From: Candidatus Rifleibacterium amylolyticum
GTDB taxonomy: Bacteria; Muiribacteriota; Ozemobacteria; Ozemobacterales; Ozemobacteraceae
Reading direction: 5' to 3'
Length of the DNA: 64,000 nucleotides
NCBI GenBank assembly: GCA_009917695.1
Contig: JAACJG010000019.1
Location: 1 to 64,000 of the forward strand
Every line of letters starts with the position of its first letter. The first letter of the stretch is position 1. The translations under genes and the position numbers were made by a program. This document shows positions 9,501 to 63,697 of this stretch, in pieces. Below the pieces are notes generated by a model. That model was given only the letters and a program-made list of their open reading frames with translations, ran no database searches and was not told the DNA's origin.

Positions 9501-12347
9501 GAAACGGAAGAACCGCGTCGATATATACTGTCGCAAAGCACGATTACGCAGATCAGCAGGCGTTTTGTCGCGTCTCAGAACTTCTTTGAGAAACATCACC
9601 ATGCGATCAGCCGCAGGCTTTGCCTTGGCAGCTTCATCGAGAAACAGACCATAAACAGTGGCCTCGTTGTATTGAGCGAGGTCTTTTTCGGTGAGTCTGT
9701 CGGCATTTTTTACCTTGCGGGCTTCGGCTAAAACTGGCTTGCCAGTTTCTTCTTCATTCTCTTCACCCTCTTCGGTCGCGACCAGATCCTCACGCAGTTG
9801 ATCGGCGCGCGCTTTCAGCCATTCCTGCGATGTCGGAAGCTTTTCGGCCTCTTCGATCAGCTTGTTAACTTCTTCAGCCATTCTGGGCGCAACGCGCAGA
9901 ACACGGCGATAATAGCGTGAAGCCCGTTCGGGATTGTTCAAGGCAACGCAGGCATCGCCCATGGTCTTATAGGCATTGGCAAGATGGCGACTACGCGGAA
10001 ATCTTGTGGTAAACAGCCGCAATTTATCAAGACCTTTGAGACCATGCCCCTGCACCAGATAGAGACGACCCAGGCGATAAGATGGAGTTTCTATCAGGGG
10101 ATCGGTAAGCGGCAGAAGTTTTTCGGCCTTTTCATACCACGAAACCGCCGTTTCGACATCTTTAGTAACGCGATAGGCGATGTTACCGAGTGTCAGCATG
10201 CTCGAGACCTGTGCGCTACCAGTTGCATTATCTACCAGCTCGACAAACAGATCTGGAGATTTATCAGGGAAACTCTGGTACATCCGGGTTGCGGCATCAT
10301 AAACCAGTGACCACCTGGTTTCATCGTTCATGTCACTGCTCTTGATCTCTTCAACGAGAGTTTCCAGCGGCTGACTTGAAGAAGCCAGACACATCACGTC
10401 CATCATGTTCTGGTAAATCTCGATGCGGTCGCGCAAGCCAGCAGTCTTGAGGATCTTACGCAGGCTTTCTTCTCTGATTCTGTAGGCCAGATCCCGCCAT
10501 TCCTGCTTCAACGAAAAGTATTTCTTCTCTGAAGGCAGGCTGTGATCGAGATATTCGCGCAGCATATGCAGAGCGCGAATCTGTTCGTTCTTGCTCAGAA
10601 ACACCTTATAAAGAGTCAGGCGATAATCAGAAGCATCTTTGCTGTCAGGGTATCTGGCAATAAATTCTTCGCGCAGACTGTTTGCTTTATCGGGGTCACC
10701 AAGATCTTCTTCGTAGATTTTAACACTGTCCTTAAGACCCTGCATGGCCCAGTAACTGTCCGGATAAGTCTCGGCAAGCTGCGAAAATATGTCGAGAGCG
10801 GCAACCGGTTTTTTCAGATGCAGATACTGCAGGTTACCGATTCGATAACGCACTTCGTCAATACGACCCCAGTCATAAAGAACATCGAGATCCCAGCTTG
10901 ATTTTATCGGAGCAAATCTGATGAGAAAACGTTCGTACATTTCTAGGGCCCGGTCAAACTGACGCAGATCGTCATCGACTATGACCGCAGTTCGGAAAAG
11001 AGCTTCTCTGAACAGCTCATGCTCCGGATATTTGTTGATAAAATCTTCATACAACAGCAAAGCTTCCTGCATCTTGCGGCTGCGATATTTTTCGTAGGCC
11101 ATGTCGAATAGAACCTGCGCTTCTGTGACTCCAGGCTCGGTGCGTTTGAGCGCTGCTTCTGTCCAGGGGTCTTCGACCTTCTCACTGCGTTCCTGGTTGA
11201 GTTCGGAAATTTTCTGATAAAAGTATCTGGCGCGATCAGCGTTTCCGAGTTTGAATTCGGCGATATAACCGGCAATACGGCAGGCCAGCATAGCCCAGTC
11301 TATCTCTTCGTCACGTTTTTCGCGACGCCGCGCTACCGACACCGACTCTGAGGCGACAAGATGCGGCGGCGTTTCAAGAAGTGTCGAAAGGGTGTTTATC
11401 GCTGTTTCGTAGTCTTTATGGCCTTCATAAAGAAGCAGTCCCTGAAGAATGCCTGCTACCCGATAACCGTCGAGACTGTCGGTATTTTTGCGAAAAAGAG
11501 CGTAATTATCAAGACAAACCTTCAGATCGGCGCCAGGTTTATAAAAGTGGTCCAGTATGCCTTTGATGAAAGCCGCTTCAGCTGCCACAGCTGTATTTTC
11601 ACTGATTTTACCGATAAAGGGCAGAGCACGATCGGGGAGATTCAGGTCAAAAGCATAAAGCAAAGCTATGCGCAGATTGGCGAGACTACTGGCGTCTTCT
11701 TCAGGAAAGGAAGCGATTTCTTCCCAGGCGACCAGCGCCTGCATTGCTATTTCAAGATCGTAACCGCGCTCAAAACCCATTATATATTCAATTGCTTCGA
11801 TATCGGGTTTTTCCGGCCATGGCCAGTAGTAGCGGCGAAAAGCCTTGTAAAGTTCTTCACTGCTGGTGAGATTGCGCCCGATAATTTTGGCTCTTGCGAT
11901 TTTGGCACGCACCAGATAGCTGCGCGCCGGCATCATCTCAATAAGCCGGTCTAATTCGCGGGTAGCGCTGGCATATTCCTTCTGTTCATTCAAAATATCG
12001 GCATTCAGCAGCATGGCCTCCCAGACGATACGGGGGTTGATATGCTCTGAACGCAGCAAAGTTCGCAAATACAGAAGAGAACGTTCTGGTTGTCTGAGTT
12101 CTCGATAATGGGCAGCCAGATACAGCCATCCCTCGCCCGGCTCGCGGCCCTGATTCTCTTTAACGAAGCCCATGATTTCGCGATGCAGCAGCTGATCCTG
12201 TTCTTTCTGTTCAGCTTCAGCTTTTATCGCCTTTTCAGCCTTAGATTCGACCGCCTTACGTTCAGCAGCAGCAAAAGACTGACCGTGCCAGGTCAGCATC
12301 AGCATTAAAAAGCATAGTATCCGGTAAGATTTATGGTTGATGTTCAT
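6564..12347 (-). CDS. Giant exported TPR-repeat protein (1,927 aa)
   Basis: The protein starts with a signal peptide (about residues 1-27, ending QSFAAAE). The rest is almost entirely tetratricopeptide-like helix pairs, seen as repeated patterns such as A-x-x-x-Y-x-x-x-L-x-x-x-P-x-S (FDRALEMYERFLIRF, YDRAITQYEEFLKTNPP, YTRARQNYERILNQYPN). Long TPR solenoids in the periplasm organise multiprotein assemblies, for example in outer-membrane biogenesis, gliding or secretion. No enzyme motif is visible. A short charged linker near residues 890-910 (rich in E) may divide it. No clear Shine-Dalgarno precedes the ATG. It is co-transcribed with the HEAT-repeat gene. Function unknown. Confidence 0.85.
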   Translation of the reverse strand: MNINHKSYRILCFLMLMLTWHGQSFAAAERKAVESKAEKAIKAEAEQKEQDQLLHREIMGFVKENQGREPGEGWLYLAAHYRELRQPERSLLYLRTLLRSEHINPRIVWEAMLLNADILNEQKEYASATRELDRLIEMMPARSYLVRAKIARAKIIGRNLTSSEELYKAFRRYYWPWPEKPDIEAIEYIMGFERGYDLEIAMQALVAWEEIASFPEEDASSLANLRIALLYAFDLNLPDRALPFIGKISENTAVAAEAAFIKGILDHFYKPGADLKVCLDNYALFRKNTDSLDGYRVAGILQGLLLYEGHKDYETAINTLSTLLETPPHLVASESVSVARRREKRDEEIDWAMLACRIAGYIAEFKLGNADRARYFYQKISELNQERSEKVEDPWTEAALKRTEPGVTEAQVLFDMAYEKYRSRKMQEALLLYEDFINKYPEHELFREALFRTAVIVDDDLRQFDRALEMYERFLIRFAPIKSSWDLDVLYDWGRIDEVRYRIGNLQYLHLKKPVAALDIFSQLAETYPDSYWAMQGLKDSVKIYEEDLGDPDKANSLREEFIARYPDSKDASDYRLTLYKVFLSKNEQIRALHMLREYLDHSLPSEKKYFSLKQEWRDLAYRIREESLRKILKTAGLRDRIEIYQNMMDVMCLASSSQPLETLVEEIKSSDMNDETRWSLVYDAATRMYQSFPDKSPDLFVELVDNATGSAQVSSMLTLGNIAYRVTKDVETAVSWYEKAEKLLPLTDPLIETPSYRLGRLYLVQGHGLKGLDKLRLFTTRFPRSRHLANAYKTMGDACVALNNPERASRYYRRVLRVAPRMAEEVNKLIEEAEKLPTSQEWLKARADQLREDLVATEEGEENEEETGKPVLAEARKVKNADRLTEKDLAQYNEATVYGLFLDEAAKAKPAADRMVMFLKEVLRRDKTPADLRNRALRQYISTRFFRFRKPEEFAEEAQQMLIKSNYAEWQSELLFRLAQAQEHFLKVPVDANKSYFEYLSFYPAGRRVEEIRRRIPQVYVKADDKKNALRFFEKLIEDNQLSDEIRVDASMQMARLLIGEDKKEDAIKTLEAALAYKSDSRPEICLRLEKLTEDFSYVRRALESEGAEEARFKALTRLLERAEEEEDYKGAAAILRDFSEGFKLPESKLWIEKKTEELGKRGVIGEIEDLIDQYPEEPETASRMFRLAKMIEGAENTRYRAEDLFYEITLVYPNSEYYRESKIRAENTRAIRAVAELSDMLKTGVKGRESEEVIIERARLLKESLKDLNAAIENYESFIELFPDSPRLDEVYLSLGELALAEAKDPQKAYEYWEKGVAVSRDPFMREDLTSRINRLKLFSEKVLFSENKQDNESGMSQVFRAWRVNKDRFYALGLLETAVSKLENRPDVARMRYYIARIHEDAGNFDRAAAEYEKALRSLYHPGCRKDMVLFRLARMYARQNREKEALKWYQSLVNRYPRSRLSRSGYYWLHKYEERNNNLTRAHHYLDVLLQFRSLSPVHREVIEKKLYEIEAKMNVEELERLKKLSPSGGGDMPYYIGKVLENNLRDYDRAITQYEEFLKTNPPVRRSREILKKVADLYEKKGDYVKAVSYLDLLLDTYEPSLNNFDLIVRIGSLVEDKLNNIELTELFYTSILAEYQKIRNVREFATAKLKRIEEQKREKARPPRGRKIVKRVYSEDDEIVIEEMEEIIARQVDDLQDFRMAERELEDLWNDNIDSLATLDIMKTLVELNMKSLQDPQKAAMYYQRWLDENPNDPLLKEYTMKLYDHYMEVLRDGQKALRLLEDYIRDHPISIETMDIELKLAKANELLIRNFDEARRIYQRIIDTRHNDPAVHEAYFRIGFVLREGFAAYDEAIKYWQDLIDQFYNNEFADKAQFAIAYTYETYRRDYTRARQNYERILNQYPNSSLQQQARDALLRIEGK

Positions 12348-52900: not shown

Positions 52901-53074
52901 TCAATTTAAGAATCTTGATGATTGTTCTTCCGTCTTTGCAATATTTAATGCTCTATCTGCCGTTCCCGGCTTCTGAAACCTCAGCAAATCAGCGAGTTTA
53001 TCAAGTAAAAACTTTACCCGTTCTCTCATGCTTGAATCGACCTTGCCGACTCTGGCTACTGGCTTTGTTTTCAT
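52901..53074 (-). CDS. 57-residue protein coupled to the HTH gene
   Basis: A complete small gene: its ATG (53074-53072) overlaps the stop of the upstream HTH gene as ATGA, and an AGAGG ribosome site lies 8 nt upstream within that gene. It ends at TGA 52901. The peptide is basic and helical (MKTKPVARVGKVDSSMRERV, later FLLDKLADLLRF). No membrane span. Translational coupling argues strongly that it is real and works with the HTH protein. Family not recognised. Confidence 0.65.
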   Translation of the reverse strand: MKTKPVARVGKVDSSMRERVKFLLDKLADLLRFQKPGTADRALNIAKTEEQSSRFLN

Positions 53075-53481
53075 GCAACCGGCCTCTTATGCTTTTGATC
53101 TTCAGACGCTTGCAAAAATGCTTTCCCGATTGCCAGAAGCTCTTCAGGAGACAATGAGAGATACCTTTCCTGCTCAGCCTCAAGTTTGCCATGTGATAAT
53201 TCTGCAATCTTTGCACAAATTGAGCTATCACCCTTTGAAGGAAGCAGCACAACATTGAATTGCAATCGTTTCTCGCTCTTGAGAATGAAAGAATCTGTTT
53301 TTATCGGTCTGCATGCATTCAGAACCAGCCATTCTTCGAGCTCTGCGAGGCTGAATAATACGCGACCTTTTTTGCCTGGCTGTTTCAAGGCCTTTATTTT
53401 TCCAGCGCTTACCCAGTTTCTCAGCGTGCCCGGCGTGACATGTAAGAATGCAGCAGCCTCTTTATAGTCCATCGTTTTCAT
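53071..53481 (-). CDS. Helix-turn-helix protein (MerR/excisionase-type N-terminus)
   Basis: The 136-residue protein begins with a winged HTH of the excisionase/MerR group: MDYKEAAAFLHVTPGTLRNW (helix-turn-helix at about 4-25), then KIKALKQPGKKGRVLFSLAELEEWL as the wing and third helix. The C-terminal 80 residues are unassigned (KLEAEQERYLSLSPEELLA). It lies 11 nt after the serine recombinase stop in the same direction. Pairs of MerR-type HTH and serine recombinase are known from IS607-family elements, where the HTH directs the recombinase, but there the order is fused or HTH first. It may act as a recombination-directionality factor or regulator. Confidence 0.7.
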   Translation of the reverse strand: MKTMDYKEAAAFLHVTPGTLRNWVSAGKIKALKQPGKKGRVLFSLAELEEWLVLNACRPIKTDSFILKSEKRLQFNVVLLPSKGDSSICAKIAELSHGKLEAEQERYLSLSPEELLAIGKAFLQASEDQKHKRPVA

Positions 53482-53492
53482 TGATTACCCCA

Positions 53493-54170
53493 TTAACAGG
53501 CGATCTGACAGAGGTTTAGGATTGTCTTTGCCTGCCATACCTTGCCGCCCTTTTTGGTTGGTATGCCTCTGAGTTCCAGTTCTGCAGCAATTTTACGATA
53601 ACTCAAGCCGGAAGATCTTAACTCTCGAATAACAGAAAGAATCTCTTGCTCATTGGTTTCAGGTAAAAGGCTTTCACCATCAGCAGCCAGCTTAAAGCCG
53701 AAAGGCACTTGACCGACTCTTTGCCCTTGCTGCTTTTTCACCTGCAAGGCTGCCTTTGTTCTTTCTCCAATGGCTTCTCGTTCCCACTGACTCACGGAAC
53801 CAAGCACATTTAATACAAGCCGGCCAGCGGCCGTGCTCGTATTTATTGAATCCTGCACAGATACCAGAGCCACCCCTGTTTTTTCAAACAGTTCAACCAG
53901 GAAGCCAAGATCTCTGACCGATCTGGTTAAACGATCAAGCTTTAAGATCACAACCGCCTCGATCTGCTTAGCTTGTATCATGCTCAAAATTTTCTGCATG
54001 GCAGGCCTGTTAAGTGATTTTCCAGAATGACCGGCATCAACTTCAGTGTTCATCAAATCAATGTCGAGTGCTTCACAGTATGCTTTAATCTTGTCCTCTT
54101 GGTGCTTCAAGCTCAAACCGCTTTCTGCCTGATCTTGAGTGCTAACCCTGATGTAACCGACAGCTTTCAT
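53493..54170 (-). CDS. Serine recombinase (resolvase/invertase family)
   Basis: With ATG at 54170 (GGAG 6-7 nt upstream) the product is 225 residues. The catalytic domain starts MKAVGYIRVSTQDQ with nucleophile Ser10, followed by VILKLDRLTRSVRDLG (the conserved Arg pair) and TAAGRLVLNVLGSVSQWERE. The C-terminal helix-turn-helix is LRSSGLSYRKIAAELELRGIP. It cuts and rejoins DNA at short paired sites as a resolvase or invertase. Two exact 18-bp direct repeats lie directly upstream and are candidate recombination or operator sites. An AT-rich spacer and the HTH gene flank it. It is a second recombinase in the island besides the tyrosine integrase. Confidence 0.9.
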   Translation of the reverse strand: MKAVGYIRVSTQDQAESGLSLKHQEDKIKAYCEALDIDLMNTEVDAGHSGKSLNRPAMQKILSMIQAKQIEAVVILKLDRLTRSVRDLGFLVELFEKTGVALVSVQDSINTSTAAGRLVLNVLGSVSQWEREAIGERTKAALQVKKQQGQRVGQVPFGFKLAADGESLLPETNEQEILSVIRELRSSGLSYRKIAAELELRGIPTKKGGKVWQAKTILNLCQIAC

Positions 54171-54184
54171 GCCGCTTCTCCAAT

Positions 54185-54236
54185 TTGTCATTTTTTGTCA
54201 TCGACATACTTAATATAATGTCATTTTTTGTCATCG
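54185..54236 (-). repeat. Recombinase control region: paired 18-bp direct repeats of 10-bp TTGTCATT units
   Basis: TGTCATTTTTTGTCATCG occurs exactly at 54186-54203 and 54219-54236, 33 bp apart. Each holds two TTGTCAT-type units at 10-bp spacing, one helical turn. They lie just upstream of the recombinase start and overlap its AT-rich promoter region, so they fit a recombination site or autoregulatory operator. The same 10-bp unit recurs at 58212 and 58763. Confidence 0.65.
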
Positions 54237-54379: not shown

Positions 54380-57300
54380 TTAGCCCCACATTGCTTTCTT
54401 GTCTGATGCCCGAATCAGCGTCTGCAAAGTTGCAACCATTTCTGGATCATCGCTGAATCGATCTCGCAATTCTTGCAAGGCCTTTGTTGTGTCGCCGCCC
54501 TGAATAATTACGATTCTGTCACCGCGTTGGCTGACTTCGCCGAATAGAGACAGTGCTGCTCCCAATCTTTCTATACTGCGAGCATCTTTTTCTTGCTGCT
54601 TTGCCTTAATCGCCTCTTCGGCTGCTTGCTCAGCGGCCAATGCTTCAAGCTTCGTTTGGTAGTATGCTTCTTGGTTCCGCTCGAATGCCGACAGGGCGGC
54701 GCTGCGCTCTTCATAACTCTTTGCCGCATTGTTGAAAATTTCTTCTTGGCGCCGCTTAACTTCTTCGTAAGCGGTCATTTGTTTTTCAAGATATTCCAGG
54801 TATTTTTCTGCATAGGCGCCTGCATCTGTTAACCGCAATGACTCAAGATCATACTTAGACGCGCCAGCCTGTTTTACCATGTCCAGCAGATACGGTGAAA
54901 TATTGCGGTCCATGTAGCCTGTCTGCAGCTGGGCGAAAGCATCGTATTGCTGAGATGAGGATAGCTTATCCATGTCAATCATGCCGGTGATCTGGCTTAG
55001 TATGTTGGCGCGCAAGTTCGACGGCAAGCCGCCTGACATATACATAGTGTCGAGCCATGGCGCATATTGCGCGAAACCCTGCGCTACCTGGGTGTTTCTT
55101 TCGCCGGTTGCAGCGCCGAGAGAACGCGCCATTTCGGCAGCTGCCATTTTGATTTCGTGAGCTGCTTCGGCCAGGTCGGCAGTGTCTTTACCGCCGTCAG
55201 TCCAGTTAAGAGAATAGGAACCGCCGTAAGCAAGGTTAGCCGCTTTGCGATATGCCGCCTCTTGACCGACAAGGGCTTGATAATCAAAACCCTTTGCTGA
55301 TTGCAGCTCGTAACCCATTTCGACCGATCTATTGTTTTTTTCGGCGCGCTCGATCGCTTCGTTAAGAGTGGCGAGGGCAGCACTGGCGCCCTGGTCGATC
55401 AGATTGTATGTTCTGGTTTTCTTGCTGAAAAAGCCATCGCCGCTGTCACTCCAGCTGTAACCAGTCTGCGTGCCATGGTAACCAAATCGACCAGCGGCAA
55501 GCTGATTTTTGTCCTGCCAAGAGAGGTATGGCAGCATACTAACTTCGTGCGATTTAACCCACGCCGCACTCATCTGCGAACGCAAATCAGACGCGGCCTG
55601 CAAAGTTTCGGCTTTGAACTTTTCCTGCCTTCCGCCGAAGATGCCGCCCGAGCCAGTCAGTCTGCCGAGAACAAAATTAGTTGCCAGGTTGATGCCGAGG
55701 TTGCCGAAGTTAATGCCGCCTGCCGCATTCATGACCGGGTTGGACTGTGCAACCGATTTTGAAATGACTGTATTCAGGATGTTGCCAAGTGTCATGCTCA
55801 GATTGCTGAAGTCAGCATTTGCAAAGCCGGCCTGAACGGCTTCGGCGATGGTTTTTGATAGTGGTTCTTTTATGTCATTAAGCGTGTCTGGGATAGAGCC
55901 TCCAGCTGCAGTAAATAGCCCGCCGGACATGAAGTCCATCATCTTTGTATTAGCAGTAGCAAGCGTCATATTTTTCAGCTCGTTGCCCCAATTTTTGCCA
56001 GCGCCGGCCAACGTTGCAAGAACATCGTCGTTCAGATCGCGAAACTTCTTTTCGAGTTTGCCGGCCTCTGTATCGCCATCCTTCAGACCGACAGCGAAGC
56101 CGCCGGCAGCTGCTGCCATTGCTGTCAAAACATTCTGAGCATCCTTCAGGCTTTTTGTTGTTTTCAGGCTGAATCCAAAACTGTCTGCAAAGGTTTCCTG
56201 AAATTCCTGAATGAGAATCTTGCCTACAGCTAACTGTTTGTTGAGCTCATCTTGGGCTTGTTTCCTTTTTCTTCGGGCCTCTTCTTCCGCCTTGCGGCGT
56301 TCCTCTTCTATTTCTTTTTTTCTGGCCGCTTCATCGGCTTCTTTCTTTGTTGCTTCTGCTTCCCTATCTTTTTGTGCCGATAGTTTACCAGCCAGCTTTA
56401 TTCGCTCTCTCTGTGTTTCCAAGCTCTTTAATTCAAGAGTAATTCTATTCTCTTCCTTTTCAATAACCTTGTCGATTTCATCAAGCCAACCAACATTTAT
56501 ACCAGCAGATTCGAGTATCCCCGCTGCTGATGAATAGCTTTCTGCTTTCTTTGCCTTATTGATAGCTGTTTGTTGTTGAGCAAGTTCGAATTTGCGCTCC
56601 CTGATTTTTGCTAACTGGCCGGCCTCGCCCTGATTGGCGGTTATTCCATTTAATCTATTCGAGGCGTTGACTATCTCGTCTATTTGCGTGGCAATCTGTG
56701 TTAACCATTCAACTGTTGGTATCATCACAGGTATGAGGCCTTCGCCAAGAGAATGTTTGAGATCTGTTACCGACGTGTCGAGTTGAGTAAATTTATCGTT
56801 GACGGTTGTTCCGTGCTTAGCCAGCACGTCGGCACTTGCACCCGCCTGCTCTAACACAGACTTTAACAGCAACGATCTATTATTCAGCAGTTCCGTTGCG
56901 TCAGAAGCTTGCTTAAAAGCCGGCGGCAGCAGTCCAAGCTGAATAAGCTCTTCTTTGCTACCTTTGCTTATTGCCTTGACGAGTCGGTCAAAAGTCTGCT
57001 CGATGCTCTGGCCGAATTCATCGCCCACTGCATCTGAAATCTGCCAGAGTCGCGCAATTTCGCCGACATCTGTAGAGACGCCCAGCTTCAAGGCCTTGTG
57101 GTTCATACGAATCAGAGTAAGATTATCAACCAGCCCATTGCTTGCCTTTTTTGTCGCCTGCTGAAGCTGATCGAAAGATATGCCCATTGTTGAAGTCAGT
57201 GTCTGCAAATATAATCTGGCTTCTGAGAGCTGAGAGGCTTCCTTCGCCATCGAGAAGGCGCCCTTTACAGCAGTTCCAAGGGCTGCTGCAGAAAGAGCCG

Positions 57301-57466
57301 TCTTCACAAAAGACGAATCCATTATTCCTGCACCAGTCTTAACGTTCTGACCGGCCTTGTTGGCTTCGCTGCCTACGTCTTGCAACCCTTTTTGCACACT
57401 GCGCAAAACCTGTTCGCTACGCCCGGCATCGGTTTCAATAATAATTTTTGTGCGTTGTTCAGACAT
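54380..57466 (-). CDS. Phage tail tape-measure-like protein (orphan)
   Basis: The 1,028-residue protein looks like a tail length tape measure. N-terminal ALSAAALGTAVKGAFSMA near residue 57 is the usual hydrophobic start of the TMP/TP901 core; the region to about 270 is helical (KEELIQLGLLPPAFKQASDA). A Lys/Glu-rich coiled coil spans about 345-415 (EADEAARKKEIEEERRKAEE type). Later parts are Gly/Ala-rich with hydrophobic stretches and a final coiled coil near 930-985. In phages the protein fills the tail tube and sets its length. No other tail gene is present here, so it may be a relic, or serve interference with helper-phage tails. Terminator downstream, long spacer upstream. Confidence 0.7.
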   Translation of the reverse strand: MSEQRTKIIIETDAGRSEQVLRSVQKGLQDVGSEANKAGQNVKTGAGIMDSSFVKTALSAAALGTAVKGAFSMAKEASQLSEARLYLQTLTSTMGISFDQLQQATKKASNGLVDNLTLIRMNHKALKLGVSTDVGEIARLWQISDAVGDEFGQSIEQTFDRLVKAISKGSKEELIQLGLLPPAFKQASDATELLNNRSLLLKSVLEQAGASADVLAKHGTTVNDKFTQLDTSVTDLKHSLGEGLIPVMIPTVEWLTQIATQIDEIVNASNRLNGITANQGEAGQLAKIRERKFELAQQQTAINKAKKAESYSSAAGILESAGINVGWLDEIDKVIEKEENRITLELKSLETQRERIKLAGKLSAQKDREAEATKKEADEAARKKEIEEERRKAEEEARRKRKQAQDELNKQLAVGKILIQEFQETFADSFGFSLKTTKSLKDAQNVLTAMAAAAGGFAVGLKDGDTEAGKLEKKFRDLNDDVLATLAGAGKNWGNELKNMTLATANTKMMDFMSGGLFTAAGGSIPDTLNDIKEPLSKTIAEAVQAGFANADFSNLSMTLGNILNTVISKSVAQSNPVMNAAGGINFGNLGINLATNFVLGRLTGSGGIFGGRQEKFKAETLQAASDLRSQMSAAWVKSHEVSMLPYLSWQDKNQLAAGRFGYHGTQTGYSWSDSGDGFFSKKTRTYNLIDQGASAALATLNEAIERAEKNNRSVEMGYELQSAKGFDYQALVGQEAAYRKAANLAYGGSYSLNWTDGGKDTADLAEAAHEIKMAAAEMARSLGAATGERNTQVAQGFAQYAPWLDTMYMSGGLPSNLRANILSQITGMIDMDKLSSSQQYDAFAQLQTGYMDRNISPYLLDMVKQAGASKYDLESLRLTDAGAYAEKYLEYLEKQMTAYEEVKRRQEEIFNNAAKSYEERSAALSAFERNQEAYYQTKLEALAAEQAAEEAIKAKQQEKDARSIERLGAALSLFGEVSQRGDRIVIIQGGDTTKALQELRDRFSDDPEMVATLQTLIRASDKKAMWG

Positions 57467-57832: not shown

Positions 57833-58054
57833 TCGAAGGCTACAAAAGCAAACCGTAACCCTGTGAAGGTTTGCCGGTGAGAAGCCAGAAACCACCGGCC
57901 GCCACGAATCTAATTACCTGAGAAGTTTTGAGAGAGGGGGAATTCTTGGAGCTGCTAATGTAGCGAGAGATAAAAGGGGCTCTGAGTCGTGATATTTGTC
58001 TGATTACTTTGGGTTGGTGCTAAATGGCCGGCCCAGGCACGCAAGACAAAAACT

Positions 58055-58086
58055 ACCCGGCCTTATTATGGCCGGGTTGTTTTTTG
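58055..58086. terminator. Terminator 1 of tandem unit copy 1
   Basis: ACCCGGCC (58055-58062), 7-nt loop, GGCCGGGT (58070-58077), then TGTTTTTTG. Upstream A-run also gives a U-tract on the minus strand, so it works in both directions. Confidence 0.85.
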
Positions 58087-58211
58087 TCCAGCGTTGCCAA
58101 GGCCTCACAACAGATTCAAGCACACCAGGTAATCAAAGTTACATTGAAGTTAAGCAAGTGGCGGCCGGTGAACAGGCTTTGAGGCCTGCCAGATTTTCGC
58201 CTGATCTGATC

Positions 58212-58241
58212 TTGTCATTTGTTGTCATTCATTGTCATTCT
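58212..58241 (+). repeat. Three 10-bp iterons (TTGTCATTNN), copy 1
   Basis: TTGTCATT starts at 58212, 58222 and 58232, exactly one helical turn apart. The unit equals that upstream of the serine recombinase, pointing to one binding protein for both places. Confidence 0.6.
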
Positions 58242-58290
58242 GCTTTTGCAGCGAGAACAAAGGCAACTGGCTAAGGCGTGGCAAAAATGG

Positions 58291-58319
58291 AACCGGGCGG
58301 CAAGCCCGGTTTGCTTTTT
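58291..58319. terminator. Terminator 2 of tandem unit copy 1
   Basis: AACCGGGC (58291-58298) and GCCCGGTT (58304-58311), then TGCTTTTT. Minus-strand reading gives CATTTTTG after the stem. Confidence 0.8.
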
Positions 58320-58606
58320 GCCCTGCCGTGCTCGGTGCCTTGACTCGAATCATCATAGCACCTCAACAAGTATACTTTTGCTGTCGAAGGCGCAAACCGC
58401 AGACCGGAACCCTGTGAAGGTTTGCCGGTGAGAAGCCAGAGGCCACCGGCCGCCACGAATCTAATTGCCTGAGAAGTTTTGAGGGAGCGGGAAGGCCTGC
58501 AGCCGAAAAGCTTGCCTGAGCTATAACCATGCCTGCGTCATGATATTTGTCTGGTTTCTTTGGGGCTTGTGCTGAGTGGCCGGCCCGGGCACGCAAGACA
58601 AAAACT

Positions 58607-58638
58607 ACCCGGCCTTATTATGGCCGGGTTGTTTTTTG
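58607..58638. terminator. Terminator 1 of tandem unit copy 2
   Basis: Same stem as in copy 1: ACCCGGCC (58607-58614), GGCCGGGT (58622-58629), then TGTTTTTTG. Confidence 0.85.
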
Positions 58639-58762
58639 TCCAGCTTTGCCAAGGCCTGGCATGCGGCAAAGCACACCAGGTAATCAAAGTTACATTGAAG
58701 TTAAGCAAGTGGCGGCCGGTGAACAGGCCTTGAGGCCTGCCAGATTTTCGCCTGATCTGGTC

Positions 58763-58782
58763 TTGTCATTCATTGTCATTCT
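58763..58782 (+). repeat. Two 10-bp iterons (TTGTCATTNN), copy 2
   Basis: TTGTCATT starts at 58763 and 58773. One 10-bp unit is missing compared with copy 1, the usual way iteron arrays vary. Confidence 0.6.
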
Positions 58783-58831
58783 GCTTTTGCAGCGAGAACA
58801 AAGGCAACTGGCTAAGGCGTGGCAAAAATGG

Positions 58832-58857
58832 AACCGGTCGAAGGCCGGTTTGCTTTT
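58832..58857. terminator. Terminator 2 of tandem unit copy 2
   Basis: AACCGGTC (58832-58839) and GGCCGGTT (58843-58850), then TGCTTTTT. Differs from copy 1 by pair-preserving changes. Confidence 0.8.
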
Positions 58858-58941
58858 TGCCCTGCCGGGCCGGTTGCCTTGACTCAAAATCATCTCAGGG
58901 CTGAAAGCCTGAAAAACGAAGTGGCGGCCGGAAAACGCCTT

Positions 58942-60033
58942 TCAGCTGCTTTTATCTGAATCTATCAACAGTTTTTCCATTGTGAGAACTGCATCATTCT
59001 GACTGCCTGGTATGTCATGCGCGTAAATGTCGCCGGTAATTCTGGTATTTGAGTGTCCAAGCCTTGCAGAAACAGAGGGTAAAGAGTTTTTATCTTTCAA
59101 CAGCATACTTGCATGGGTATGTCTCAAATCATGTGACCTTACACCAGAGATACCAAGCTCTTTCGAGATGCGCTTAAGATGTTCGGTTAAGCGTCTCGGG
59201 TTAATGTGTCGGCGACCGCCGAACAACAGACCTTTGCGCTTTTCAATCGGAACCTGCCGGAATTCGTTAATGATTGAATGCGGTATCTCGAGCGTTCTGT
59301 ATGATTTTTCTGTTTTAAGAGGCCTGAGATGCACACCGCCACGACTTTCAATCAACTGCCTTCTGATTGTGACGGTTCTTTTCTCAAGATCAATATCAGA
59401 CCAGGCAACGCCCAACGCCTCACCACGCCTGGCACCGGCAAACAGCAGCAGCAGACACGGAAACTTGTATTCTGATTCAAGGCACTTTTTATAGAGCATG
59501 TTGAATTCATGCTTTGACAGAATCCTGTGCTTTGCCGGTTCTATTTTCGGCATTTTAACGCCCTTCAACGGGTTTCGAAAAATCAATTCATCTTCAATGG
59601 CCTGTCTCAACGCAGCATTGAGAATTGAACGTACAAGATTAACTGTCCTGGGGGAACGTCGGGCACTCAACTGAGAAAAGAACCCGGCAAAAATAAGGGG
59701 TTTCAGATCTGCTAGATTGAATTTACCTAGTTCAGGCTTTATGTGATTATTTATCATCATAAAATAAAGCCGTTTAGTGGTATCAGCCTTGCCAGTTGAA
59801 TACTTTGCAAGCCATGTATCAAGCCAATTCTCAAGGGTAACAGTAGAATTATGATCAATACCATTGATCTTTCGATACTTTTCCAGCAGTTCAAAGCTTT
59901 CTTTCAGAGTTTTTCCGGCCGGAAAGTGTGTTTCAACAATCCGGCCGGCTGCGTCTTTCGCCCTATGACGATAATAATAACGGCCATTTCTCTGATAGAA
60001 ACAGCCGCCACCTTTAGGCCTTCTGGCTGCCAT
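58942..60033 (-). CDS. int: Tyrosine recombinase (phage-type integrase)
   Basis: The 363-residue protein begins MAARRPKGGGCFYQRNGRYYYR, an arm-type DNA-binding start, followed by a core-binding domain (TLENWLDTWLAKYS) and a catalytic domain with all residues: Arg in FAGARRGEALG (R203), Lys in PLKTEKS (K243 if the second Lys), HDLRHTHAS (H301, R304), LGHSNTRIT (H327) and Tyr in YAHD (Y337). It integrates and excises the island at the att site. The ATG at 60033 lies 20 nt inside the upstream gene's end, so the two are coupled; a longer frame to 60078 is possible. It is separated from the tape-measure-like gene by the tandem non-coding unit. Confidence 0.95.
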   Translation of the reverse strand: MAARRPKGGGCFYQRNGRYYYRHRAKDAAGRIVETHFPAGKTLKESFELLEKYRKINGIDHNSTVTLENWLDTWLAKYSTGKADTTKRLYFMMINNHIKPELGKFNLADLKPLIFAGFFSQLSARRSPRTVNLVRSILNAALRQAIEDELIFRNPLKGVKMPKIEPAKHRILSKHEFNMLYKKCLESEYKFPCLLLLFAGARRGEALGVAWSDIDLEKRTVTIRRQLIESRGGVHLRPLKTEKSYRTLEIPHSIINEFRQVPIEKRKGLLFGGRRHINPRRLTEHLKRISKELGISGVRSHDLRHTHASMLLKDKNSLPSVSARLGHSNTRITGDIYAHDIPGSQNDAVLTMEKLLIDSDKSS

Positions 60034-60511
60034 CTGCGACCTGGTTATAGCTTTCAATAAGCAGCTGTGTGTGCTCAAAAATAATGAAGCCTTTTTCCAT
60101 GCCAGCGGCTATATAATATGGAACAAGATCTATAACATTTTTGAACCAGCGCATTTTGCTGAGTTTCAATTCAGTTTTCTGCAAGTATGATTCAGACAGA
60201 GTTTCAATATCTCTAAAGTCAGAGATGACAAAGTTATCAGATTTCAGCATGCCAACAAGCTGCCTGGTAATTGTTTCCGCTCCAGGCTCATCTTTTGCAA
60301 TATCCCAGCACACAAACAGACCAGATAGTAAACCGTAAAATTCTGCCAAGGCCTTAAGATCGACTACTTCAGAAAGAGCACTTGCAAGAGTTGTGTCAAT
60401 TGAGCCGCAGAAGTCAAAGGCAGGAAGAGGCTCACGGTACCGACGACCGGCAGCAATTATTTCACACGCTTTGCCAAAGTATTTATGAGAGCCTTTATTG
60501 TTAACAAGCAT
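60014..60511 (-). CDS. Hypothetical island protein
   Basis: The 165-residue product is helical and hydrophilic with scattered aromatic residues (LKALAEFYGLLSGLFVCWDI, KNVIDLVPYYIAAGMEKGF). There is no signal peptide; the hydrophobic patches are too short for confident membrane spans. Family not recognised. GGAGA lies upstream of the ATG. Its end overlaps the integrase start by 20 nt, so both are made from one transcript. A role linked to integration or excision is possible, from position only. Confidence 0.65.
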   Translation of the reverse strand: MLVNNKGSHKYFGKACEIIAAGRRYREPLPAFDFCGSIDTTLASALSEVVDLKALAEFYGLLSGLFVCWDIAKDEPGAETITRQLVGMLKSDNFVISDFRDIETLSESYLQKTELKLSKMRWFKNVIDLVPYYIAAGMEKGFIIFEHTQLLIESYNQVADGSQKA

Positions 60512-60871: not shown

Positions 60872-61159
60872 TCAATGCTGAATTACAGAGGTCAAAACCG
60901 TGGCTTCGTTATGTTGGTCCCGGGAAGAATCTCTTTGAATCCCGCAATCGAGCCACAACCTCAAATCAAGACCGCTTTTGAATGCTTCGGTATGATCTTT
61001 GCCATAGCTACGAAGAACGGGCCAAAGACGAGCATTGCCAAAGGCGTGAAGCCATAATAGCGAAGCGTTTTGACCGGCGCGGTCGTTATCCAGAGAGACA
61101 AGAATTTTTGAAGCACAAGCGAGAGCCTTATTTGCAGAATGTGCTGTGTTAAAAGTCAA
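60872..61159 (-). pseudogene. Primase, C-terminal fragment (TOPRIM end)
   Basis: The frame contains KILVSLDNDRAGQNASLLW, the metal-binding DxD part of a DnaG-type TOPRIM domain, but lacks the zinc finger and the first Glu of TOPRIM. Those are encoded at 62428-63258 in the same direction. The two pieces are most simply one primase gene split by the 61160-62427 insertion. Only a TTG could start this piece, about 15 codons after an in-frame TAG. Whether it is expressed alone is doubtful. Confidence 0.7.
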
Positions 61160-61254
61160 GTCGTTTTTGCTCTACACAGGCTAATTTCCTTATAATTTTC
61201 AGTGAAAGACTCTCCTTTCCTGGCCAGCGCCCTTGCCTGCCGAAGAAGTTTATT

Positions 61255-61945
61255 CTCAACGACACAGCGGCGAATGTCGCAATGTTTCAACGACATGGAC
61301 ATAGAAAACAACACAGCCCTTGCGAGTTGTACGCTGGAAAAGAAAGGCAGCTGAATTCGTCGCAGCTGCTCATAAACGACTATTAGCCAGTCAGGAACGC
61401 CTGGTTTTTAGAGAAAGGTTCGTAGCATCACCATAGACACAGTGAAGCGGTTTCAGCTTGGCTGGAATGACGAGGATAGATATCACTATCGCTTTAACAG
61501 GGATTGCCGGAAGTCCACTTCGAAAGAGATGGCAGGCTGGAAAGAGCTCGCTGGTTGCCTCGTGGGATTGTCATTCCGTCTTATTCAATATCCCCAGGCG
61601 ACTGTTGCGCCTCAAGATCAGGCGTCCTGATGTTTAGCACCGAAACGACTACTGACTGAGATATGTGCGTTTGCGGCGGCTCCGTTGCCAGCCTTCTTCT
61701 ACGGCCCTGCAAAATCTGTTTTCGTTGTTGTCAGGTCAGACTTGATGCAATAGCTACCTCGGCCAGGAATGCGTCGGCGACGCCTATGGCGATAGGCGAG
61801 CACTATGAATCAGCTTGGTCATTATATATTCACCTTGTAGGTGAATATATGTGCTACATATCCATGAACATTGATTTGTAGGAGCTTTCTACCACATCTC
61901 GGCTTGAGTAGAAAGAAGGAGGTGAATAAACTAATCTCGGTCATT
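61255..61945 (+). repeat. Degenerate inverted copy of the primase region (left arm)
   Basis: Read on the plus strand, this stretch follows the minus-strand primase sequence of 63011-62327 (for example GAAGCGGTTTCAGCTTGGCTGG, TTGCCTCGTGGGATTGTC, ATGAATCAGCTTGGTC, shown in part). It has dense substitutions and short indels, by eye at about one base in eight. All primase frames are broken. The copy includes the terminal hairpin ATATATTCACC/GGTGAATATAT. Confidence 0.75.
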
Positions 61946-61989
61946 GGTACCTTGATACCGCTTGCAGAATGTTTAGCCCACCTTCCCCT

Positions 61990-62064
61990 TACCTTAAAAC
62001 TAAGACAGCATTAGGCCTTGTGATTGCCGCATTCAGCCGTAATGAATAATGATAGTTTAAGGTA
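61990..62064 (+). ncRNA. Possible IS110 end / bridge-RNA-like hairpin
   Basis: TACCTTAAAACT (61990-62001) pairs with AGTTTAAGGTA (62054-62064) with one bulged A, enclosing a 52-nt loop. It lies just upstream of the IS110 transposase start, where IS110-group elements encode their guide (bridge) RNA. The location and a long stem-loop are the only support. Confidence 0.3.
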
Positions 62065-62105
62065 GGGTTCATTCTAACAAGTTTGAACAGATGTAGATTA
62101 TTGTA

Positions 62106-62341
62106 ATGAAAAAAACTGATCGTCCGACCTATCTTGGCATAGACGTGTCAAAGAAAGTCTTGATTGCTGCTTGTATGGAACAGAGCGCAGGGCGCAGCTT
62201 TAACAACTTAACAAACTTTCGACCGTGCAAAAGATCGCCATTCAAGATTTCTCCCCGACATGCCGCGTTGTTCTGGAAGCCACCGGCGTGTATCATTCCG
62301 CTTCTTTTGTTGAATTTGTAAGTCCAAATGACCGAGATTAG
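62106..62341 (+). pseudogene. IS110-family transposase, N-terminal fragment with frameshift
   Basis: ATG at 62106 opens MKKTDRPTYLGIDVSKKVLI, the RuvC-like DEDD start of IS110-family transposases (Asp13 catalytic). After about 38 residues the frame is lost; it continues in another frame from 62222 with KIAIQDFSPTCRVVLEATG and VYHSASFVEF, again typical of IS110. The gene is cut off at 62341, where the inverted arm begins. The C-terminal transposase-20 domain is missing, so it is inactive. Confidence 0.75.
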
Positions 62342-63011
62342 CTTATTCACCTTCCTTCTTTCTACCTGAAGCTTATCGGTAGAAAGCTCCTTACAAATCA
62401 ATGTTCATGGACATGCAGCACATATATTCACCACAAGGTGAATATATAATGACCAAGCTGATTCATAGTGCCGCCTATCGCCATAGGCGTTGCCAGATCG
62501 CCGCATTCCTGGCCGAGAAGTATTGCATCAAGTTCAGATTCGACAACAACGAAAACAGATTTTGCAGGGCCGAAGAAGGCTGGCGCAACGGAGCCGCCGC
62601 AAACGAATACATATCTCGGGTCAGTGTCGTTTTGCAAAGCAACATCAGGACGCCTGATCTTGAGGCGCAACAGTTCGTCAGATATTGAATAAGACGGAAT
62701 GACAATCCCACGAGGCAACCAAAGAGTTTTCCGCCTGCCATTCTCTTTAGTGACTTCCGGCAATCCCCAGCCAGGCCGATAGTGATATCTATCCTTGTCA
62801 TTCCAGCCAAGCTGAAACCGCTTCACTGTGTCTATGGTGATGCCACGAACCTTCTGCAACCAGGCAAGCTGTTCCGGACTGGCCAATAGTCGTTTGTGAG
62901 CAGCTGCGACGAATTCAGCCGCCTTCTTTTTCCACAACTCGCAAGGGGTTGTGTGTTGCTTTATGTCCATGTCGCCGGAAACATTGCGACATTCGCCGCT
63001 GTGTCGCTGAG
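62327..63011 (-). repeat. Right arm of the inverted duplication (intact primase side)
   Basis: The partner of 61255-61945. This arm keeps the primase frame open. Next to the centre, about 100 nt (62327-62427) are not primase-like but are shared by both arms. They contain the hairpins CTTTCTACC...GGTAGAAAG and ATATATTCACC-ACAA-GGTGAATATAT (62422-62447). The primase frame ends inside the latter. Confidence 0.75.
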
Positions 63012-63258
63012 ACCCTGGCTCTCTGGCTTCAAAACCTGCCAGATTACGAGCCTCAATAAAGCTTAGTCCATCAACGTTTCGAATCAGGTCTATAATATCG
63101 CCAGACTTATTGCAGCCTCGACAATAATAACGGCCGCGATCTGGCCAGAAGGTAAAACGATCATTGCCACCACATACGGGGCAAGGGCTGCACCATTCAA
63201 CTGCAGTCTTCTGCTTAGCAGTAATGCCTTTCTGATTGAGATATTCAATAATATTCAT
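62428..63258 (-). pseudogene. Phage/island primase, N-terminal part (zinc finger and start of TOPRIM)
   Basis: From ATG 63258 this encodes 276 residues. The DNA-binding zinc ribbon is CSPCPVCGGNDRFTFW plus YYCRGC near residues 25-50, followed by DIIDLIRNVDGLSFIEARNL. The start of TOPRIM is SVFVVVESELDAILLGQE, with its catalytic Glu. The rest of TOPRIM is missing; translation ends FTLW at the insertion. The remaining part lies at 60872-61159. Intact, such proteins prime island replication and often fuse to a helicase. The first ATG of the frame (63366) would overlap the upstream gene by 41 nt, so 63258 is preferred. Confidence 0.75.
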
Positions 63259-63325
63259 AAATTTTGAGCTTTTCAGCCTCCTTCGTTTGTCCTGGTGCAA
63301 CTTGAATTCTGCAAAGTCACACCAG

Positions 63326-63697
63326 TCAGTCGGTATGGCTTCTAATTTCCAACTGTTCCCGATCATCTTCGGGCTGCTGGTATTTGAGCCAGTTGGTAAT
63401 CGTTATGATTCTGCCACCGTTGCTGCTTTCCTGGGTTATCATCTGCTCAGATTCAAACAGATTCAGAACTCTTTTAACCTTGTTCTTATCGATACGGTAT
63501 TTTTCAGAGATGCTGATACTGCTGGTGATAAGCTGACCGGGAAGCAAAAAGAATTTCTTACCCCTGAAAGAAACTGAATAGGGTTTATGTGCTGCCTTCA
63601 ATAACAGAAACAGCCAGACAGCGGCATGGTCTGCATCTCTGGAGACAACAGGATTTTTAAGAGAGCAGCGATAAAGCTTGATGTAACCTGATTGCAT
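63326..63697 (-). CDS. Phage replisome-organiser-type winged-helix protein
   Basis: The 123-residue protein resembles the N-terminal winged-helix domain of phage replication initiators: GYIKLYRCSLKNPVVSRDAD, AVWLFLLLKAAHKPY, LLPGQLITSSISISEKYRI and RIITITNWLKYQQPE. In phages this domain binds the replication origin and a C-terminal DnaD-like part loads the helicase; here only the first domain is present. It is followed by the primase, so it likely starts island replication with it. The ATG lies 25 nt after the AlpA-like stop. Confidence 0.75.
   Translation of the reverse strand: MQSGYIKLYRCSLKNPVVSRDADHAAVWLFLLLKAAHKPYSVSFRGKKFFLLPGQLITSSISISEKYRIDKNKVKRVLNLFESEQMITQESSNGGRIITITNWLKYQQPEDDREQLEIRSHTD

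Follow-up and report, generated by a model that had tools for sequence, protein, structure and literature searches.

Between a tyrosine integrase gene and a gene resembling a phage tape measure, both on the minus strand, the window (the whole 64,000-nt stretch analysed here) contains two tandem units on the plus strand (table 1). A repeat search and BLAST against the own genome gave a period of 551 bp and 86% identity between the units. They have four blocks in common, of 181 nt (80% identity), 98 nt (93%), 113 nt (96%) and 78 nt (99%). From 5' to 3', each unit comprises two hairpins (H1 and H2), the arm CACCGGCCGCCAC, a variable stretch, a terminator-like hairpin (T1), a near-invariant block containing the arm GTGGCGGCCGGTG, direct repeats of TTGTCATT and a last terminator-like hairpin (T2). 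An earlier note on this DNA had described a tandem repeat with this period and order of parts, which the repeat search and block identities bear out. The 10-bp difference between the units corresponds to one iteron fewer in unit 2. Since many 1-2-nt indels separate the copies and no long frame is common to them, we read the unit as non-coding. No conserved protein frame was found in related copies either, and the earlier claim on this point stands. The two arms form a long-range stem, P3, whose 3' arm occurs a third time beside the integrase stop; this extra arm is also kept in the island of a related genome, G005. Neither the stem nor the third arm copy had been described in the earlier note.

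Table 1. Positions in the window of the tandem units, their parts and the flanking genes.
Feature	Position	Strand	Basis or remark
Unit 1 (W1)	57833-58383	+	repeat search, own-genome BLAST
H1, unit 1	57848-57874	+	GCAAACC/GGTTTGC, paired in 8/8 copies; copy comparison
H2, unit 1	57876-57886	+	short GGY/RCC hairpin
P3 5' arm, unit 1	57893-57905	+	CACCGGCCGCCAC
Inner long-range stem, 5' arm	57913-57920	+	ATTACCTG, pairs with 58126-58133; alignment fold
T1, unit 1	58045-58088	+	terminator-like hairpin; U-tract only in window and G005 copies
Inner long-range stem, 3' arm	58126-58133	+	CAGGTAAT; alignment fold
P3 3' arm, unit 1	58158-58170	+	GTGGCGGCCGGTG
Three TTGTCATT repeats, unit 1	58212-58239	+	direct, at 58212, 58222 and 58232 (10-bp spacing)
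T2, unit 1	58290-58320	+	terminator-like hairpin, bidirectional; terminator scan
Unit 2 (W2)	58384-58894	+	86% identical to unit 1; repeat search, own-genome BLAST
H1 and H2, unit 2	58399-58437	+	
P3 5' arm, unit 2	58444-58456	+	
T1, unit 2	58607-58640	+	terminator scan
P3 3' arm, unit 2	58709-58721	+	
Two TTGTCATT repeats, unit 2	58763-58780	+	at 58763 and 58773
T2, unit 2	58831-58858	+	terminator scan
Third copy of P3 3' arm	58921-58931	+	beside integrase stop; also in G005
Tyrosine integrase of the island	58942-60078	-	73% identical in G005; start probably 60033
Tape-measure homologue of Mu-like prophage, carried alone	54380-57466	-	

Over both strands of the units we found 10 terminator-like sites, compared with 2.3 +/- 1.5 expected from shuffles, and because the sites fall on both strands the hairpins look bidirectional. 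The earlier proposal of two conserved terminators per copy held for the window and G005, where T1 has an A-tract and a U-tract, lies inside the P3 domain and would end transcription there. It did not hold in more distant copies, on contig C3 of the window's own genome and on contig C426 of a further genome (G004:C426), which have a GACAA/TTGTC hairpin without a U-tract at the T1 position. A U-tract kept in all homologues, as in an element consisting only of a pair of intrinsic terminators, was thus not found, and the conserved trait at T1 is a hairpin rather than a terminator. T2 had been said to change sequence while keeping all eight pairs. The pairs are indeed kept in the two window copies (arms AACCGGGC/GCCCGGTT in unit 1 and AACCGGTC/GGCCGGTT in unit 2), but only one of them changes, from G-C to U-G, and in the G005 copy it is A.G and no longer pairs. 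A sequence scan revealed no clear promoter directly before either unit.

The strong structure suggested earlier was confirmed by folding. Unit 1 folds far below chance (z -6.4), two other copies gave z-scores of -2.9 and -5.8, and the fold of a four-copy alignment reached -91.3 kcal/mol compared with -55.9 +/- 4.4 kcal/mol for shuffled columns (z about -8). The P3 arms, 252 nt apart, form a perfect 13-bp inverted repeat, found in 0 of 400 dinucleotide shuffles. The core common to the copies consists of the two 5' hairpins and a P3 stem of 11-13 bp around a variable interior, and the arms are kept although their spacing spans 210-432 nt in the six full copies. In a compact copy (G004:C43) the stem reads GCCACC/GGTGGC instead of GCCGCC/GGCGGC, one two-sided compensatory change, with 6 pairs kept and the outer pairs lost; taken whole, this copy folds no better than shuffles. 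H1, paired in every copy, shows one C-G/G-U and one A-U/G-U change. Clear covariation, which would have matched the earlier view of selection on RNA structure, did not emerge: two-sided changes are few and affect only two pairs of the core (one C-G/G-U in H1 and one G-C/A-U in the long stem), and pair counts were not strongly above those of shuffles. Most variable pairs of H1, H2 and the inner stem are G-U when read on the plus strand, which is the likely RNA strand. Both strands fold well, and we dropped strand assignment from folding energy because composition explains the small plus-strand advantage in 6/7 copies, the exception being C3. A cobalamin-riboswitch look of the 5' domain was also considered and has no such Rfam match.

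A homologue search with BLAST and two covariance models (R1 and R2) identified eight copies, spread over four species that belong to one genus: the two window units, a tandem pair (G5a and G5b) in G005:C30, the C3 copy at position 92753 in the window's genome (G000), G004:C426, G004:C43 and G003:C239, the last truncated at the edge of its contig. Every copy has an integrase, primase or terminase small subunit gene nearby. The window and G005:C30 carry one island type, with genes for a CHC2 primase, a DnaD-like protein, AlpA, integrase and the tape measure in the same order, and their integrases are 73% identical; homologues beside a related integrase are what the earlier note had proposed to look for. 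The C3 and G004:C426 islands encode a P27-type terminase small subunit and have the element directly downstream of it, near the island end; the C3 island begins at a tRNA-Arg gene and is bounded on both sides by a 23-bp direct repeat. The G004:C43 island encodes a D5-type helicase and a primase, while that of G003:C239 has a P4-type integrase and RhuM, with the element about 1.3 kb beyond the integrase gene. Wherever an island has a gene directly upstream (CI, terS, primase or RhuM), the element is co-oriented with it. Its presence on unlike islands of one genus makes it a common tool and no peculiarity of a single island.

Between G000 and G005, DNA identity is 76-78% for the element, 75% for the integrase, 70-75% for the tape measure and 68% for the primase. 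The element is thus conserved at least as well as the integrase DNA, and better than the primase and most tape-measure DNA of the same islands. The window and G005:C30 islands are of satellite type, having genes for integration and replication but no complete set of virion genes; besides the tape measure, we recognised no capsid, portal or tail gene in them. The satellite or helper setting put forward earlier was supported. A role in island replication, raised at the same time, is unlikely because the islands bearing the element carry different replication genes.

No further copy was found among the 382 genomes searched. Two weak matches in other phyla were rejected, one (L292) being an H1-like terminator hairpin and the other (L293) lying inside a Dus-like gene, and those low-scoring model matches in relatives that were inspected turned out to be coding sequence or to have no core. 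Phage and plasmid records gave no BLAST match to the element. The pattern GCCAGN{2,6}CACCGGCCGCCAC matched many viral and genome contigs, with the rest of the element in none among the matches listed, and the H1 pattern gave only chance matches in viral contigs. Protein searches of viral contigs with the tape measure, integrase, primase and terminase small subunit yielded no additional element.

The gene on the other side of the units encodes 1028 aa and has a homologue in the G005 island (L018:8766-11927, plus strand). It received no credible Pfam or PHROG name, and BLAST against phages gave no match. A profile built from the two proteins found full-length relatives in genomes G002 and G001. 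In G002, the gene for the relative precedes large distal-tail genes within a Mu-like prophage that also has Mu F-like, virion morphogenesis, capsid E and Mu Gp36 genes; the window protein is 59% identical to this relative over the C-terminal 545 aa, in line with the tape-measure-like gene reported earlier. The G005 and G001 proteins are 33% identical over the N-terminal 297 aa and 55% in the C-terminal half (two segments). Judged by gene order and homology, the 1028-aa gene is a tape-measure homologue that is carried alone on two islands, and the Mu-like prophage of the sister species represents the candidate helper family. The candidate helper prophage regions of G001 and G002 contain no copy of the element, nor do those genomes hold a credible copy elsewhere, indicating that the element was not copied from a site of that phage.

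As the earlier note had supposed, the element matches no known RNA family. Among the Rfam 15 covariance models, including GOLLD and ROOL, none reached its gathering cut-off; the best was ncr1015, with 28.3 bits against 60 (E 0.16), and the C4/P4 CI antisense RNA model (RF01695) scored 17.1 bits against 45. GOLLD and ROOL, RNAs that phages and prophages carry, are likewise large, folded, non-coding and of unknown function (PMC12286853), but are longer, at about 660 and over 800 nt, than the core of about 330 nt that is our best reading for the window. P4 CI and P1 C4 are small RNAs of a satellite or phage used in immunity, whereas the present element falls below the C4 cut-off and has no leader complementarity that we could find. 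Retron ncRNAs (msr-msd) resemble it in their long-range closing stem around an internal hairpin, but the conserved hairpins of the element lie outside the closing stem. No reverse transcriptase was recognised among the island ORFs, which were read, the larger ones also being family-scanned.

Two of the islands have both a stand-alone tape-measure gene and the conserved non-coding element, the combination seen in the Vibrio PLE satellites, all of which carry the SviR RNA and a tmp gene (PMC12987554). The Vibrio cholerae PLE produces an abundant conserved non-coding RNA, the IIR transcript (PMC7567579), which we take to be the same RNA as SviR (PMC12987554). PLEs use their own tape measure, SviR is speculated to help manipulate tail assembly, and according to this work no other satellites were reported to encode a tape measure (PMC12987554). 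Compared by description, the two systems are alike in having a conserved non-coding satellite unit, inverted repeats and satellites with their own tape measure (PMC7567579, PMC12987554). They differ in that P3 is internal to the present element and that H1 and H2 lie outside this stem. Our best reading is that it belongs to a previously undescribed family of structured RNA of phage satellites. It is almost certainly a conserved structured module and probably acts as RNA; that it is a trans-acting regulator is plausible but somewhat doubtful. Taken together, we tentatively favour a plus-strand gene, carried by satellites, for a trans-acting non-coding RNA from a new family.

The position of the element directly downstream of the terminase small subunit gene and near the island end in C3 and G004:C426, and its occurrence on islands with different replication genes, would also fit a cis-acting DNA packaging site, pac- or cos-like, that is recognised by terminase and loads the satellite genome into helper capsids. 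We regard this as unlikely. The window and G005 islands have the element without a terminase gene, and G-U-tolerant pairing in an 11-13-bp stem with a changing interior is unexpected for a terminase site. The missing element in the candidate helper further argues against a copied packaging signal. It is rather improbable, too, that the units are a transcription insulator or attenuator, in which bidirectional terminators between the integrase and tape-measure genes stop read-through and the stem serves as an antiterminator switch. The excess of terminator-like sites is symmetric on both strands, and with T1 within the P3 stem, read-through and termination would yield different folds; however, there is no U-tract at the T1 position of C3 and G004, H1, H2 and P3 are conserved beyond the needs of an insulator, and the neighbouring genes differ between islands.

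A replication origin or recombination site, whose iterons and inverted arms bind a replication protein, integrase or excisionase, seems quite unlikely. Iterons do occur in W1, W2, G5a and G5b and, inverted, in C3, in the window and G005 the third copy of the arm directly adjoins the integrase gene, and the element is near an attR-like end in C3 and G004. Neither G004:C426 nor G004:C43 has iterons, however, the islands have unlike integrases and replication genes, and the G003 element is well separated from its integrase gene.

For an RNA gene acting in trans, the reading that we prefer, we infer transcription, strand, trans action and target as follows. The RNA would start near a conserved TCGAAG and form the small hairpins H1 and H2, followed by the long-range stem P3 closing the variable domain. 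T1 and T2, with their U-tracts, would end or trim the transcripts of the window and G005 copies, and the tandem copies might raise the dose or give variants. During helper infection, the RNA would act in trans and regulate helper or satellite mRNAs, as SviR does for PLE satellites; by this analogy, it may damp them. Searches for antisense targets in the leaders of the window, G005 and C3 islands found none that stands out consistently, and in the candidate helper prophage, whose helper role is itself only a candidate one, no seed was conserved across copies. As the element is also present on islands with no recognised tape measure, its role would not be tied to tails alone. We consider it improbable, though worth stating, that the islands form a non-PLE satellite family producing chimeric virions with their own tape measure, while a dedicated tandem structured RNA shifts the expression of helper tail or packaging genes to their advantage. 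Satellite RNAs known so far are few, and we found none that matches the element. A second, unrelated tape-measure satellite would open satellite control of tail assembly and the part played by its RNA to comparative tests.

Several smaller observations concern the islands and the prophage. The window primase gene is split into a C-terminal part (60872-61159) and an N-terminal part (62428-63366), while the G005 copy is intact; between the parts (within 60872-63366) are an inverted primase-like segment (61442-61630, plus strand) and a short transposase-like ORF starting at 62106. Adjoining the tape-measure gene, at 53071-54191 (minus strand), are genes for a serine recombinase (Resolvase domain) and a small HTH protein, which are absent from the G005 island. 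Treating G005:C30 as a circular contig was rejected, there being no exact end overlap and only diverged repeats. Its ends (L018:1-750 and 11990-12308) carry diverged copies of a ~370-nt repeat, and the island may therefore sit in a repeat array or be circular. In the G002 prophage, the C-terminal part of the Mu F-like head protein (L300:17785-19008, minus strand) matches an ADP-ribosyltransferase domain (Pfam E 5e-7). The island extends past the window (G000:C19:66800-73800; L288:6828-13824), where it has an AAA_21 ATPase gene and its partner, genes for an XRE-like regulator and a metallopeptidase-like protein, a second P4-type integrase and seven clustered tRNA genes; it is thus composite, with a possible defence module.
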